A stretch of 23,217 bases of DNA from a virus: the IMG/VR virus record IMGVR_UViG_3300032282_001429, positions 1 to 23,217 of that record; one strand, 5' to 3'. The notes beneath the pieces were generated by a model. It was not told where the DNA came from, did not search any database, and saw only the letters and a list, made by a program, of their open reading frames with translations. Shown here one piece after another: positions 2,163 to 17,963 of this stretch (its first letter is position 1; each line of letters begins with the position of its first letter). The translations under genes and the position numbers were made by a program.

Positions 2163-2306
2163 TTACTTCGCGGAGCGTCGGGAATAGTCCACTCCCTTGA
2201 TAGTGCCCTTATTCTTGGAAGCGTAAAAGATGTTCTTGGCCTTCTTGGAGCCGTACTCCTTGACCATCGCCGCCATGATTTCCTTACCCTTCTTTGTCAG
2301 GGGCAT
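2163..2306 (-). CDS. Small basic phage protein (47 aa)
   Basis: A 47-residue basic protein beginning MPLTKKGKEIMAAMVKEYG and continuing with a YASKNKGTIKG motif. Small proteins of this type recur in many unrelated tailed-phage structural blocks (recalled, not searched), and their function is unknown. It starts 1 nt after the stop of the 46-aa gene (TAA-t-ATG), so it is probably translated by re-initiation. There is no transmembrane segment, and lysines are spread throughout, which would fit nucleic-acid or virion association, but nothing in the sequence proves that. Confidence 0.72.
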   Translation of the reverse strand: MPLTKKGKEIMAAMVKEYGSKKAKNIFYASKNKGTIKGVDYSRRSAK

Positions 2307-2307
2307 A

Positions 2308-2448
2308 TTATTTGCAGCACTTACGGTTGGTGCAGCCGTTGTTCTTAACCTTGCCGCCGTATTCCATCATCCGCTCCTTCTTGCCCTCGGAGCGTTCGTG
2401 CCGCATCTCCTGCTTCTTCGACTTATAGCGTTCGCCAGATTTGCTCAT
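2308..2448 (-). CDS. Tiny basic Cys-containing phage protein (46 aa)
   Basis: A 46-residue protein starting MSKSGERYKSKKQEMRHERS and ending with a short Cys cluster (CTNRKCCK). It is very rich in Lys, Arg and Glu, with a Gly/Asn-rich end. The three cysteines near the C-terminus could bind a metal or form a disulfide, but the spacing matches no motif I know. It lies between the membrane-protein cluster and the 47-aa basic gene, with a 1-nt gap to the latter, which supports it as a real coupled gene. Function unknown. Confidence 0.62.
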   Translation of the reverse strand: MSKSGERYKSKKQEMRHERSEGKKERMMEYGGKVKNNGCTNRKCCK

Positions 2449-2462
2449 GGCCGTATTTTACC

Positions 2463-2627
2463 CTACTTGGTAGCTTCCCGGCTCCACTTCCACACCAGAT
2501 AGGCAATGCCGAGAAGGGTGCCAATAATGCCAAGGATCTGATTAACTTGCCCCAAAGCCGTAGCAGATACGGTTGGGATTGACGCGATTACGAGATCCTT
2601 GGCGTGAACGTTCATGGGTTTACCCAT
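2463..2627 (-). CDS. Small single-pass membrane protein (54 aa) in the lysis-like cluster
   Basis: A 54-residue protein with one clear hydrophobic segment at about residues 31-46 (ILGIIGTLLGIAYLVW), followed by a short basic tail (KWSREATK). I chose the ATG at 2627, giving MGKPMNVHAK, because it lies 1 nt after the stop of the lipoprotein gene; a longer reading would overlap that gene extensively. A second ATG four codons downstream is possible. Position suggests a holin, antiholin or other lysis accessory protein. The topology is seen; the role is inferred from neighbours. Confidence 0.6.
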   Translation of the reverse strand: MGKPMNVHAKDLVIASIPTVSATALGQVNQILGIIGTLLGIAYLVWKWSREATK

Positions 2628-2628
2628 A

Positions 2629-2841
2629 TTACCATCCACGGTTGGAAACTTCGGTCTCCAAGCGTGTGATGGTACGCATCGCTTCGCTTGTCCAATTCGG
2701 TGCTGCTTGTGCTGCCGCCTTGAACTCAGCATGATTAAGGAGAGGGAGGGTGTTGTCCGACGCCATTCTTGGCATCCGGTTGCAACACCCCCCCAGCATT
2801 AGCAATGGCATCATCATTACGCCGATTTTTGCCAAGCTCAT
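2629..2841 (-). CDS. Small lipoprotein, candidate outer-membrane spanin (Rz1-like)
   Basis: A 70-residue protein beginning MSLAKIGVMMMPLLMLGGCC: a short basic N-terminus, a hydrophobic core and a lipobox-like LGGC, so signal peptidase II cleavage before Cys19 is plausible. The mature part would be about 52 residues. An AAGGA sequence about 9 nt upstream supports the ATG at 2841. The gene begins inside the preceding small membrane-protein gene in a different frame (107-nt overlap), the arrangement classically seen for Rz/Rz1 spanin pairs of phages infecting diderm bacteria. Mature Rz1 proteins are usually proline-rich and this one is not, so the spanin call rests on the lipobox and the overlap. 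Confidence 0.6.
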   Translation of the reverse strand: MSLAKIGVMMMPLLMLGGCCNRMPRMASDNTLPLLNHAEFKAAAQAAPNWTSEAMRTITRLETEVSNRGW

Positions 2842-2926
2842 TGCTTATGTTCCTTGAGGCTATGACAGCCCCTACGGCGTTCAAAAGGGCTGTAATGGCC
2901 CTTAGAATGGCCGTAATGAGGCTCAC
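2735..2926 (-). CDS. Small membrane protein, candidate inner-membrane spanin (Rz-like), GTG start
   Basis: A 63-residue protein read from a GTG at 2926 that overlaps the stop of the upstream holin-like gene (GTGA). A GAGG sequence 4 nt upstream of the GTG supports this start. An N-terminal hydrophobic segment (residues ~3-22) is followed by a polar tail with an RNDDAIANA stretch. The last 107 nt overlap the lipoprotein gene in another frame. An N-terminal membrane anchor with a polar periplasmic tail, overlapped by a lipoprotein gene, fits an i-spanin, but at 63 residues it is much shorter than typical Rz proteins and has no long coiled coil. Confidence 0.55.
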   Translation of the reverse strand: MSLITAILRAITALLNAVGAVIASRNISNELGKNRRNDDAIANAGGVLQPDAKNGVGQHPPSP

Positions 2927-3108
2927 AGAACCTCGCCAGACCCGCCATTCTTCTTGGAGAAGACGGACCACACGGCAACACCAACCGTAGCCAGAGCGCC
3001 GGTCACTTCGGGGGTAAGCAGACCTGTGATGTCCAGACCCTTACCGGCAAGGTAGCCAGCAAGGGCGGCAAGAACAGCGCGGATGACGCCAGCAATCGTG
3101 TTATTCAT
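2923..3108 (-). CDS. Holin-like small membrane protein (61 aa)
   Basis: A 61-residue protein starting MNNTIAGVIRAVLAALAGYL with two hydrophobic stretches (about residues 4-22 and 35-53) separated by a short turn containing LDITGLLTPE, and a charged tail (SKKNGGSGEVL). Two membrane segments, small size and a short polar C-terminus are typical of class II phage holins, which permeabilise the inner membrane at lysis. Similar small proteins in other phages are often annotated as holins (recalled). It starts 2 nt after the stop of the 46-aa gene and overlaps the next membrane gene by 4 nt. No endolysin gene lies beside it. Confidence 0.6.
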   Translation of the reverse strand: MNNTIAGVIRAVLAALAGYLAGKGLDITGLLTPEVTGALATVGVAVWSVFSKKNGGSGEVL

Positions 3109-3110
3109 GG

Positions 3111-3251
3111 TTAGTCCTTCTTCTCTTCCACCAAAGGCTGGAGGGTGTTGAGCGCCTTGGCGATCAGTTCATGTTCCTGACGGGTGCCGCGAAAAACCAC
3201 AGCAACCTGAGCGAGAATATCGAGAGCCTGCTTGGGAGTGATAGTGTCCAT
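3111..3251 (-). CDS. Small acidic/helical phage protein (46 aa)
   Basis: A 46-residue protein starting MDTITPKQALDILAQVAVVF and ending in EEKKD. It appears to be one or two amphipathic helices (residues 6-20 and 25-43) with no membrane segment. It is the first gene after a gap in the late block; a TTGACA hexamer lies 28 nt upstream of the ATG and there is no clear Shine-Dalgarno. It is followed 2 nt later by the holin-like gene, so it may belong to the lysis transcription unit. Function unknown. Confidence 0.6.
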   Translation of the reverse strand: MDTITPKQALDILAQVAVVFRGTRQEHELIAKALNTLQPLVEEKKD

Positions 3252-3256
3252 GTCCA

Positions 3257-3285
3257 ATTGCTTATGAATTCCGGCAATATGTCAA
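3257..3285 (-). promoter_or_regulatory. Possible promoter upstream of the lysis-like cluster
   Basis: On the minus strand a perfect -35 hexamer TTGACA (3280-3285) is followed 17 nt later by a weak AGCAAT, which ends only 5 nt before the ATG at 3251. If used, the transcript would be nearly leaderless. The -35 is convincing; the -10 is poor. Confidence 0.35.
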
Positions 3286-6730: not shown

Positions 6731-7347
6731 TAGTTGCGGCGGTAGGCGCGATTGACGTGGGTTGAAATTCGGTGGGCAACAATGCCTGTGGACCTTGTGA
6801 CATCCACCTCGGCAAGTTCATTTTGAAGAAGATCATCAGCCATTTTCTCTTCTGTCAACGCTACATCATTCTTGCCATCAGACCTCAACCAATCGGCATA
6901 AGCCCCTTGGGCAATGTAGTCCTGCCATTCCTCAGGGATATTGGTCGAGGCATCCGTATAGGGTCCGTCCCAGTTCTTGCGATAGCTGACGTAGGCAGAT
7001 GTCGTGGAAGCCGATGTATCGTTGATTAGATGGGCTCCATCGTAAGAGACATAGAACTCAAGCTCGATGGACGAATACTGGTAGAAGGGCTGGTAAACTT
7101 TGTGAACACGGATAAACTTATCAATCGTGCTCTTGCCAACCTCCGTAAAAGGAATGATGTTATTGGTGATTGTACGAGACTCGCCAACAATCAACCAACG
7201 GGGCCAGAAATCGCAGGCTTCATAAGCCATCTTGGCTCGGCGATTGATGAACTCCTTGATGTTGGCTTGCGTATCCACAGTCGGAGACGTAATGCCACCA
7301 AGGGCCTTCACCCTATTGTAAATAGACGTATAGGAAACGTTTTCCAT
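6730..7347 (-). CDS. Putative head-tail connector/adaptor protein (205 aa)
   Basis: A 205-residue protein starting MENVSYTSIYNRVKALGGIT. It has an N-terminal helical segment with EFINRRAKMAYEACDFWPRW (residues ~32-51), a beta-rich centre with FIRVHKVY and EFYVSYDG, and a C-terminal helix around PEEWQDYIAQGAYADWLRSD. Length, a helical start and position between capsid and fibre genes match phage connector proteins that extend the portal, such as gp6- or gp11-type adaptors, but I do not claim a specific family. Its ATG overlaps the upstream stop (TAATG) and its stop overlaps the next start in the same way. Confidence is good for a structural gene and moderate for connector function. Confidence 0.65.
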   Translation of the reverse strand: MENVSYTSIYNRVKALGGITSPTVDTQANIKEFINRRAKMAYEACDFWPRWLIVGESRTITNNIIPFTEVGKSTIDKFIRVHKVYQPFYQYSSIELEFYVSYDGAHLINDTSASTTSAYVSYRKNWDGPYTDASTNIPEEWQDYIAQGAYADWLRSDGKNDVALTEEKMADDLLQNELAEVDVTRSTGIVAHRISTHVNRAYRRN

Positions 7348-10216: not shown

Positions 10217-10474
10217 TTAACAACCCCAAGCTCGCCGGGACCAATAGTTGGCAGAGAGCTTGCCCTCGCCGCCCTTGATGCCAGCGGAACGGGCGCAATA
10301 GGAAGCCTTGCGGGCGGGTTGATCCTTTTTGATCGACATCGAAGGATCGCCAAAACGAACCAACTTCACCTTATTCCCCACCTTGGCTAACACCGCAGAC
10401 TTCTTGGAACCGCCCGGTGTGCGCTTTGGCTGGTTGTACCCAGAAAACGTCATGCCGTGATACTTGATGCTCAT
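10217..10474 (-). CDS. DUF6321-like small phage protein (85 aa)
   Basis: An 85-residue basic protein containing MTFSGYNQPKRTPGGSKKSA, then AVLAKVGNKVKLVRFGDPSM, and ending GKLSANYWSRRAWGC. The order GYNxPxRTPG, KSAVLAK, KVKLVRFG and a C-terminal SAxYW matches small proteins I associate with DUF6321 in phage head modules. Function is unknown; basic residues and gene position suggest contact with DNA or the head-tail region. Its ATG overlaps the portal stop (ATGA), so it is translationally coupled to the portal. Confidence 0.7.
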   Translation of the reverse strand: MSIKYHGMTFSGYNQPKRTPGGSKKSAVLAKVGNKVKLVRFGDPSMSIKKDQPARKASYCARSAGIKGGEGKLSANYWSRRAWGC

Positions 10475-15719: not shown

Positions 15720-15824
15720 CTAGGGTTTGCTTGGCGGGTCGCTAGGAGGTCGCGTGAAGACTACGATAAGCAGGAAGATGGCTAGGATGAGAGCACCTAG
15801 CAGGAGGTCAATGAGGCGGCTCAT
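15720..15824 (-). CDS. 34-aa single-pass membrane peptide at the end of the MoxR/VWA cassette
   Basis: A 34-residue peptide beginning MSRLIDLLLGALILAIFLLI, with a hydrophobic helix at residues 4-23 and a polar, proline-rich tail (TRPPSDPPSKP). Its ATG overlaps the VWA-gene stop by ATGA, and an AAGGAG lies 8 nt upstream, so translation is well supported. It is immediately followed by a terminator, making it the last gene of the cassette. Small size and one membrane helix suggest a membrane anchor, regulator or toxin-like peptide working with the VWA protein; this is inference from context. Confidence 0.7.
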   Translation of the reverse strand: MSRLIDLLLGALILAIFLLIVVFTRPPSDPPSKP

Positions 15825-17188
15825 TTGAGCATCTCCTTGAGGGCCTCGAGGTGTTCTATCCGCTTGATGTCGTGCAGCTTGGATAAGCGCAGGGCTTCGG
15901 CGGATAGTTCCGAGTGTTGGTCGTCATTGACACCTGTGACGTAGCCGTCGCAGATCCAGATGCGCGGTTGGGTTTGCGTGCCCAACCACTTGAGGACGGG
16001 GCCGTCGATGATGTTGCCTTGGCCCGTTTCGTCACGGAAGTGACGGATGGCGTTTTCGTTGGCCATGCGGCCCTGTTCGGCTACGATGGCGATCTTGCCT
16101 GCGTCCCCATATCCGCAATAGATGGCAACCTTGGCTGCGGGTGCCTTTTCGAGGATGTTGGCGATGGCTTTGGTGCTGATGTTCATTGACCCTGAGGCGT
16201 CGATGATGAACGTGCCGCCCTTGTTGGCATTGCGGCGGGTGGGGCGTTTGAAGGCGCGTCCGTCGGTGAGCAGGCGATGGATTGTGCCAACGCGGGTGCC
16301 TATCATCATGGAACGCTTTCGGCGGTCGCCCTCGATCTTGCGCTGCTTTTCGAGGTGGAGCTTGCGTATCTCGCTGAGCTTGCCCCAATTGGCCTTTCTG
16401 GTGGCGTTCTTATGCCCCATGAGGCTGTGCATGTGGCGCTTGATGGTCTCGTCATCGCTGTCGATTGCCTCGTGCGCTTGGGATAGGAGCTTGCGCAGCA
16501 GCTTCGCGGCCTTGATGGTTAGCTTGAACGTCGGGATTTCGCCCGATGTTGTCTTGCGCTTGCCCGACAACGTTTGGCCGACCATCTTGCCTATGCGATG
16601 TGCAACTCGCAATAGCTCACCGTGGTCGTCCGTTGTTGGCATTTCTGGCAAAACGATCGCTCTTTTGTTGATCGCGATTATTACATCGTCATGCATCTTT
16701 CTGAACTCGTCGTACAGCTTAAGAGGGCCATGTAATCCACGCGGAACTGCCGTCGTGTGTTGCAGCATCAGGTGCGCATAGCTTTCGAGGATCGCATGCT
16801 TGTCTGCTGAGTTGGCGATCTGATCTACCAGACGCGCATGCGTCTGTGGCGTTGAGCATCCCATGTCACTCGGCAGTAGGTTCTTGCGATAGAGCGCGGT
16901 GGCTATGCGTAGATCCTCGACGCATTGGAGGTCGTGGTTGTTGAAACCGTGCTTGGCACATAGCTTGGCTGGCGAGATGCCGGGCGTGATTGCCGCATGC
17001 ATCAGTTCGTGCATGCGGACAAACTGCTCGTTGGCTGCGCCTGCGGGAGGTAGACCCATCTCGTTATTGATGGGATCGGTGTAGCCCTCTGGCATGTCGT
17101 GGGCGGGTGCGGTTTGGACTACCTTCCACGCCTTGCCGTTGATGGCCTCGGGCAATGGCCGAGATGGATGTTGTTTATTCTTTTGCAT
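15821..17188 (-). CDS. HExxH and von Willebrand A domain protein, partner of the MoxR-like ATPase (455 aa)
   Basis: A 455-residue protein. Near the N-terminus MHELMHA contains HExxH (H60, E61, H64), followed by VEDLRIATAL (E91/D92), the spacing expected of a zinc-metallopeptidase-like fold with a downstream acidic ligand. A helical, basic middle (~200-310) leads to a VWA domain starting TFIIDASGSM, with MIDAS residues D330, S332 and S334; the later ICDGYVTG near 412-419 could supply another MIDAS acid. This order resembles CobT-like and DUF2201-like proteins that work with CobS/MoxR AAA+ ATPases. It starts 4 nt after the ATPase stop; the ATG at 17188 avoids a long overlap. It could be a metal-dependent adaptor or protease loading substrates to the ATPase. 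Whether zinc is bound is not shown. Confidence 0.85.
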   Translation of the reverse strand: MQKNKQHPSRPLPEAINGKAWKVVQTAPAHDMPEGYTDPINNEMGLPPAGAANEQFVRMHELMHAAITPGISPAKLCAKHGFNNHDLQCVEDLRIATALYRKNLLPSDMGCSTPQTHARLVDQIANSADKHAILESYAHLMLQHTTAVPRGLHGPLKLYDEFRKMHDDVIIAINKRAIVLPEMPTTDDHGELLRVAHRIGKMVGQTLSGKRKTTSGEIPTFKLTIKAAKLLRKLLSQAHEAIDSDDETIKRHMHSLMGHKNATRKANWGKLSEIRKLHLEKQRKIEGDRRKRSMMIGTRVGTIHRLLTDGRAFKRPTRRNANKGGTFIIDASGSMNISTKAIANILEKAPAAKVAIYCGYGDAGKIAIVAEQGRMANENAIRHFRDETGQGNIIDGPVLKWLGTQTQPRIWICDGYVTGVNDDQHSELSAEALRLSKLHDIKRIEHLEALKEMLK

Positions 17189-17192
17189 GTTA

Positions 17193-17963
17193 TTAGACCG
17201 TGGCGGCTTCGTTGACGGTGGCGGCGGCAACTTTGATGCTGTCGAGGATTGCGTTGGCGCGGCTCTTGCCGAACACGGCGGTGGCGGCAACCTTCTCGTC
17301 CACAACCTTGCACAGGTCGTTGAACGTGAACCAGCTACGCATGGAGATGCGCTCCGATTGGTTGGGATGCGTGGCGGACGCCTTGGCCGCTTTGCGCTGG
17401 CACTCGGGCAGCATGTTGATCATTTCGGGGTGCGGCTCGTCGATCTCGATGACCTGCGAGAAGCGGGACTTCATGCCCTCGGTCCGCAGCGCCTCCCCAG
17501 GGAGGAGGTTGGACGTTGCAACGCAGGTAAATCCCTCGGCGGGCTTGAGCGTTTCGCCCGTGATGAGGTTCATCTTGGCGGAGCCGGTGCCGTCAAGCAC
17601 CGTATGTAGGAGCGACTCGACGTCGCCGTTGGCCTTGTCGATCTCGTTGATGACGAGTCGGCGGCCGAAGCGCCAAGCCGTGGCAGCGGGGCCGTCCTGC
17701 CAGACGAAACCTTCGTTACCGCGATTGATGTAGTACCCCAGCAGATCGGCTGCGGAGGTTTCGTCGGTCATCGTGATTACGACCGCGTCTGACGCGCCCT
17801 GATGTTGAGCCGCGAACGTCTTGCCGGTGCCAGCAGGACCGTGCAGGAACAGAAAGCGGTTGTTGGGCATACGACCGAGGTTGTCGAGGAGAGCGTTGGC
17901 GACGTGCCAAACGCTGTTCTGGTCGATAACGCTGGTCGTGGAGGAGCTGGTGCTCTTGTTCAT
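17193..17963 (-). CDS. MoxR/CobS-like AAA+ ATPase (256 aa)
   Basis: A 256-residue AAA+ protein. Walker A is GPAGTGKT at residues 42-49; the Walker B region is LVINEIDKA at about 103-111, in which the usual first acidic residue is Asn106 while Glu107 is kept; sensor 1 is CVATSN near 147-152; an arginine-finger-like GMKSRF ends at R167-F168. MoxR-type ATPases form hexamers that remodel or load metal into partner proteins, usually with a VWA-domain partner, and the partner is encoded next door. Its leader is A/C-rich (ACACACAAC) with no Shine-Dalgarno. It is compact, lacking a long C-terminal lid. The target is unknown. Confidence 0.87.
   Translation of the reverse strand: MNKSTSSSTTSVIDQNSVWHVANALLDNLGRMPNNRFLFLHGPAGTGKTFAAQHQGASDAVVITMTDETSAADLLGYYINRGNEGFVWQDGPAATAWRFGRRLVINEIDKANGDVESLLHTVLDGTGSAKMNLITGETLKPAEGFTCVATSNLLPGEALRTEGMKSRFSQVIEIDEPHPEMINMLPECQRKAAKASATHPNQSERISMRSWFTFNDLCKVVDEKVAATAVFGKSRANAILDSIKVAAATVNEAATV

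Follow-up and report, generated by a model that had tools for sequence, protein, structure and literature searches.

The lysis genes considered here compare most closely with the overlapped two-component spanins described by Kongari et al. 2018, of which phage P2 is an example (PMC6139136). In that work, a periplasmic cysteine is found in either partner in 507 of 528 known two-component pairs, the reported summed periplasmic length is 62-300 residues, and the o-spanin was unannotated in 196 of the 528 two-component systems. In Campylobacter phages, lysis genes are reported to lie outside cassettes (PMC7692668). A second point of comparison is the Pam3 gp28 holin family, which is PF23987 (Phage_holin_10) in Pfam. 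The third is phage T7, where 17.5 is the holin and 18.5 and 18.7 are the spanins. The T7 endolysin, an amidase, is encoded by gene 3.5, far from 17.5, 18.5 and 18.7.

The stretch of DNA analyzed here, called the window, comprises all 23,217 bases of a virus record without end repeats. Its late genes run along the minus strand and include the terminase large subunit, an SU10-type capsid protein, and tail genes, as recognized in Pfam and PHROGs scans with the assignment to individual frames being our own. A 697-aa window protein has a counterpart annotated as portal in three phage records. The lysis cluster lies near the left end of the window as four small minus-strand frames. An earlier note made from the letters alone had described four tiny genes here, encoding a two-pass holin-like protein, a GTG-started single-pass protein, a lipobox protein nested over its end by 107 nt, and another single-pass protein. 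All four frames are present. The first (2923..3108) encodes 61 aa with two hydrophobic stretches and begins at an ATG preceded by GAAGGA. The second, the i-spanin candidate (2735..2926), encodes 63 aa from a GTG at 2926 that overlaps the holin stop as TGTGA. The third, the o-spanin candidate (2629..2841), encodes 70 aa from an ATG preceded by the Shine-Dalgarno-like AAGGAA. It shares exactly 107 nt (2735-2841) with the second frame, in +1 at offset 85. The fourth (2463..2615) encodes a 50-aa one-pass membrane protein that is a frequent neighbor downstream of the spanins.

In our reading, the 63- and 70-aa proteins form an overlapped two-component spanin whose family PHROGs hardly covers, lying beside a Pam3-type holin, and we place the probability of this reading at roughly 0.85. 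The cluster would then supply the holin and spanins of a phage lysis module. In it, the 61-aa holin would open the inner membrane at a set time. We infer that the i-spanin sits in the inner membrane by its N-terminal anchor, that the o-spanin is an outer-membrane lipoprotein, and that the two pair across the periplasm via their C-terminal helical parts. Once the peptidoglycan is cut, which is probably the work of a lysozyme/SLT-like enzyme whose gene lies elsewhere in the genome, as it does in several related phages, the spanins would bring both membranes together and the outer membrane would give way. The 50-aa protein would be one more small membrane protein in this module. As machinery this is an ordinary cluster, but of a sequence family barely recognized by a standard phage protein library.

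Like the overlapped spanins of PMC6139136, the window o-spanin starts inside the i-spanin, in a different frame, and continues beyond its end, and the two systems also share a lipobox, short C-terminal parts, and an adjoining holin. Unlike those spanins, the window pair has no match to the PHROGs spanin families, its family carries a motif of its own with predicted C-terminal helices (see below), and there is a basic residue in the hydrophobic helix of its i-spanin. The window also resembles T7 in having a late-region holin with overlapping spanins and, as we suppose for the window, a wall enzyme elsewhere. However, T7 18.7 lies wholly inside 18.5, whereas the window o-spanin extends beyond its partner. 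Spanin function implies a diderm host, so the host of this phage would be diderm if that function holds.

The lipoprotein signal of the 70-aa protein is a sequence pattern, the lipobox LGGC at Cys19 with a hydrophobic core, and leaves a 52-residue mature part. A structure model built from 14 sequences predicted helices at residues 38-46 and 48-68 behind a low-confidence signal part. The mean pLDDT was 71 for the whole protein and 83-92 for the ten-residue blocks that make up residues 31-70. Neither member of the window pair matched a spanin in PHROGs or Pfam, and tblastn of the holin and of the o-spanin against phage records gave no match. We then used p47 (2163..2306, minus strand; alignment of 8), a flanking marker outside the lysis unit, to read the same genome place in relatives; relatives of p47 are encoded in 521 of 600 pattern-matching viral-contig stretches, among the matches listed. 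This gave lipoproteins in L091, L140, and L142 with the same C-terminal motif as the window protein, HPEFxAAAxxAPxFT. A second flanking marker, p46 (2308..2448, minus strand; alignment of 8), also lies outside the lysis unit.

A search with the lipoprotein alignment found 48 viral loci. From 55 loci with a profile match, six copies were dropped (L001, L170, L187, and three pieces among L200-L206), leaving 49 contig rows that include the window and L196; several are near-identical, hence the rows do not count independent lineages. The lipobox is strict in 42 rows, reads TSGC, AMGC, or TAGC in six, and is truncated in one. Partner frames were scored in the 42 strict-lipobox rows, and all 42 have a frame with a hydrophobic start overlapping or abutting the lipoprotein gene. 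In 41 of them the overlap is in +1 and spans 107-176 nt. At L150:6780-7126, in a different phage type, the family pair overlaps by only 4 nt, in +2, a further difference from the overlapped spanins. The family therefore spans overlapped and almost separate gene arrangements. The Rz/Rz1-like pattern put forward in the earlier note is well supported by the 49 rows, the constant partner, the adjoining Pam3 holin, and comparable cassettes elsewhere. The window pair itself is unmatched in PHROGs, and lipoproteins of four of the five relatives tested match the PHROGs family "Rz-like spanin" weakly, at E values of 0.0011 (L183, a member of the window family) to 0.058. A literature search of limited depth found no description of the window-type family. 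Gene callers often miss overlapping o-spanins, and the family motif helps to find them in uncultured phages. One row, L196:1959-2319, is on a 3.4-kb contig in an Oxalobacteraceae MAG and has the spanin pair with the 50-aa protein. This is a weak host hint, because short phage contigs are easily misplaced.

We next considered whether the overlap could arise by chance. On both strands of the window, only one hydrophobic-N-terminus frame is overlapped by a lipobox frame, namely the spanin pair, and the same search in 60 dinucleotide-shuffled windows gave one pair in all. The detector missed visible pairs in L004, L008, and L010, and over 1.33 Mb it gave three calls that look like chance (L100, L104, and L121). 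When the 63-aa gene was redrawn synonymously, the second frame was open in 15,035 of 20,000 redraws, but open with a lipobox signal in only 93 of 20,000. Openness alone is therefore unremarkable, and would suit a lipobox frame that is no gene at all; the lipobox is remarkable. That the frame is a chance one is contradicted by its homologues in 48 other contig rows, by its Shine-Dalgarno-like sequence, and by its differences from the L003 counterpart, 18 of 25 of which fall at third codon positions of the o-spanin frame outside the overlap. We regard this conservation as having already refuted a chance frame.

The comparison with L003 also bears on selection. The counts of differing sites were 4/82 for the i-spanin-only part, 11/107 for the overlap, and 25/106 for the o-spanin-only part. 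In the latter, eight amino-acid changes were seen where 19.7 were expected (P 0.000, 3000 simulations), which indicates purifying selection on the o-spanin's own half as judged from sequence. Inside the 107-nt overlap, this two-sequence test found neither frame significantly constrained (7 versus 8.0 and 7 versus 8.3 expected). The overlapping frames are conserved as coding in that both have homologues, with no significant constraint within the overlap from two sequences.

The 63-aa protein has an N-terminal hydrophobic helix followed by ~40 mostly polar residues, and its counterpart in L003 is 87% identical. A longer, 78-aa reading from 2971 was rejected; the frame is open there but has no Shine-Dalgarno-like sequence. 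The hydrophobic stretch covers approximately residues 3-23 and includes Arg9 and Asn16. Its KD 19-residue maximum is 1.95, and its helical moment is 1.56, versus 1.01 for the holin and 1.15 for the 50-aa protein. High moments (1.40-1.56) are found in the window, L003, L140, L154, and L183, though not in L142 (1.00) or L150 (1.09), and Lys or Arg occupies the place of Arg9 in eight of ten aligned family members. A position-independent insertion-energy sum was positive for 14 of 14 proteins and did not discriminate. It is not certain that such an amphipathic, Arg9-bearing stretch is a true membrane-spanning anchor, and it may be an unusual one. The basic residue, the high moments in five of these members, and the lack of a Pfam or PHROGs family match could also be expected of a second holin-like or amphipathic membrane-active protein, with the lipoprotein acting alone or with some other partner. 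However, all 42 strict-lipobox genes start inside or against such a frame, 41 of them in the same register, which is the known spanin pattern, and we consider a non-spanin role improbable.

Taken as an i-spanin, the 63-aa protein is short, as the earlier note had stressed, but this is less odd than it was made to look. Members of its family measure 49-89 aa, and the periplasmic residues of the window pair, counted from the sequences as ~40 + 52, add up to a length inside the reported 62-300. The sole candidate periplasmic cysteine of the pair is Cys20, which directly follows the lipid cysteine; in L140 and L142 it is the i-spanin that carries cysteines, two of them. Homology between the window-type i-spanin and that of L006, a member of the enzyme-linked cassettes described below, was unsupported in a profile comparison (probability 9.5%).

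The 61-aa protein matches PF23987 with 38.6 bits against a curated cut-off of 27 (E 1.1e-9) and is 90% identical to its L003 counterpart. It resembles the Pam3 gp28 family in having 61 aa and two hydrophobic stretches, in line with the two-pass holin-like protein of the earlier note. It is a member of this family by sequence, and hole formation is predicted. The relatives with Pam3 holins form two groups, the enzyme-linked cassettes and the window's own group. The cassettes of L004, L005, L006, L008, L009, and L010 begin with the enzyme, followed by the holin, a 70-72-aa protein, and a 78-80-aa lipoprotein starting inside the latter. L011 has the same order with proteins of 68 and 69 aa. Among the four enzymes upstream of the holin tested with Pfam, those of L004, L006, and L011 are Peptidase_M15_4 and that of L008 is CHAP; the enzymes of L005, L009, and L010 were assigned by resemblance alone. 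The L006 lipoprotein matches the PHROGs "Rz-like spanin" at 7.3e-10. These sets (L004-L006 and L008-L011) are lysis cassettes of the usual kind. In contrast to L004, L006, L008, and L011, the window holin has no adjoining endolysin. In L140 and L091, two to three kb of tail-fibre-like genes lie between the Pam3 holin and the spanins. Homology of the Pam3 holins to the two-pass proteins of L164, L183, L154, L166, and L150 was unsupported in a profile comparison (probability 5%).

The absence of an adjacent endolysin, also remarked on in the earlier note, stands for this contig but need not be real, as the record is 23 kb long and without end repeats. No endolysin adjoins the window cassette, and the 30 other window frames gave no peptidoglycan hydrolase among 11 Pfam families or the best 25 of 34 PHROGs families. 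Pfam likewise gave no peptidoglycan enzyme in 61 frames of G001-G003 (37-38 kb; best 25 of 44 families), in 10 frames of phage C75C1, or in 41 of the 49 frames of at least 85 aa in the spanin-carrying G020. Two frames of the G001-G003 set matched Rpf1_C, a non-enzymatic-looking model, weakly (E 0.0009). These results suit a phage with no dedicated endolysin that exits via a virion-associated wall enzyme or host autolysins, helped by the holin and spanins. However, reading the translations of G020 revealed a 139-aa frame with a lysozyme-like pattern, ESGG...GPAQI, which Pfam had not flagged. Failure to find a lysin with Pfam is therefore weak evidence, and statements of "no endolysin" that rely on Pfam can mislead.

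Searches with this pattern and a profile located a lysozyme-like gene in L036, L043, and G023 as well; L036 and L043 are related to the window through the capsid protein, at 83% and 79%. The profile was seeded with L036, L043, G020, and G023, so four of its 12 matches are seeds. Among 31 records, these 12 are L036, L043, and ten of 24 spanin carriers (G020 and G023 being seeds), and the gene is found in eight of ten spanin-carrying records of at least 24 kb. In the ten carriers a distance of 11-21 kb separates it from the spanins, and eight of them have it on the opposite strand. Compared with the PDB, the family profile hits i-type lysozymes at ~3e-6 (3ab6, 4pj2, 2dqa, and 8bbu, over 80-100 residues), and the Glu of the ES motif, compared with i-type lysozymes and Pfam SLT, is kept in 4/4. 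Of three members tested against Pfam SLT (cut-off 21.3 bits), one scored 22.9, one fell just below at 20.9, and one had no match. Unlike the i-type lysozymes, these proteins are phage-encoded, are about 110-140 aa long, and have no reliable structure model (mean pLDDT 48 for the L036 protein, from two near-identical sequences). They also differ from the T7 enzyme, an amidase, in being lysozyme-like.

The profile found no match in the window, G001-G004, C75C1, G021 (42.6 kb), or G026 (32.6 kb); G021 and G026 carry spanins, and G001-G003 have neither window-type spanins nor the lysozyme-like gene. A search beyond the window thus yields a remote lysozyme-like gene in several relatives, but not in these. 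The window extends 20.4 kb beyond the spanins, so the gene would be expected inside it at the shorter distances seen; in six of the ten carriers it is 17-20 kb away. The complete 39.5-kb genome of C75C1 and the 37-38 kb of G001-G003 indicate the probable full size of this phage. The lack of a match in G001-G004 and C75C1 speaks for a phage without a dedicated endolysin. The unflagged gene in G020, its counterparts in other spanin carriers and in L036 and L043, and the fact that the window is a fragment all speak against it, and we judge it unlikely. By analogy with these relatives, we infer a remote lysozyme/SLT-like enzyme in the window's phage itself, acting together with the holin and spanins.

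The 50-aa protein may be a second holin or a holin regulator. In an alignment of nine sequences, 17 of 51 columns are invariant. An 89-aa reading of this frame from 2732 was rejected as an over-extension, as the first start in L003 is at the 50-aa position, which is common to the aligned homologues. A kinship with T7 holin 17.5 was also rejected, as the comparison found nothing. At this genome place, the 50-aa protein is the more constant presence, which would fit a 50-aa working holin with the 61-aa protein as antiholin or accessory, or the reverse. However, the 61-aa protein alone reaches the holin family cut-off, the PF23987 matches of the 50-aa proteins of L140, L091, and L142 are weak and below it, and the T7 comparison lends no help. 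We regard such an exchange of roles as possible but doubtful, and keep the 61-aa protein as the holin.

The genome place itself has different occupants. The 50-aa protein follows the spanins in the window, L003, L091, L140, and L142, but in L092, L095, and L134 it comes after a three-TM protein instead. In the capsid relatives G001-G003, a three-TM protein and a 57-61-aa protein occupy the lysis place. The holin-spanin set therefore resembles a cassette that is swapped in and out at one fixed genome position. Homology between the 50-aa protein and the 57-61-aa protein of the G001-type relatives was unsupported (profile comparison, probability 5%), and a deeper kinship among the small proteins of this place is not proved by such comparisons. 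That spanins and a three-TM protein alternate at a single position amounts to a natural experiment on which lysis parts are interchangeable. A bolder proposal, which we put forward tentatively and think rather less than evenly probable, is that this is a widespread, hardly recognized family of compact, +1-overlapped spanins in environmental phages, whose i-spanins are held by an amphipathic, basic-residue helix and not a classical anchor, whose o-spanins pair via a conserved helical C-terminus, and whose cassette replaces the three-TM protein at a fixed place, uncoupled from the remote lysozyme-like gene.

Directly upstream of the holin, a TTG-started frame (3111..3257, minus strand) encodes a 48-aa protein without a family match in Pfam and PHROGs scans. 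Positional counterparts, identified by eye (L140:1376-1507, L164:6460-6672, L025:15725-15886, and L033:8074-8244), precede the holin or the three-TM gene in relatives. At the lysis place of one relative, L027:15082-15603 encodes a 173-aa lipobox (LVGC) protein, which had no Pfam or PHROGs match when tested as L065:11553-12074. Immediately ahead of the lysis place, capsid relatives encode ~150-aa proteins that have a single hydrophobic start and contain a TGSMKP motif (L019:13401-13850, L014:13715-14179, and L109:96-560; cluster of 7 frames). We take these to be like S26 signal peptidases; the one tested, from L019, had no significant Pfam match.

Relatives of the 50-aa protein (42-52% identity) are also found on three contigs of Geminisphaera colitermitum TAV2 (L197, L198, and L199, near position 7000), a member of the Verrucomicrobiota, where they lie behind a 137-139-aa protein. 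The window capsid protein found no counterpart in that genome. Elsewhere in the window, an ATPase P-loop frame (17193-17963, minus strand) is probably the Pfam AAA_5 match. Within 15821-17963 (minus strand), the frame after it, of 494 aa, may contain a von Willebrand-like domain as judged by eye; the two frames lie beside the small terminase, and we take them to be a CobS/CobT-like pair. Finally, an 85-aa protein with a SYCARSxGIKG-like motif (10217-10474, minus strand) adjoins the portal-like gene of the window, and in relatives a similar protein sits between the 50-aa gene and p46.
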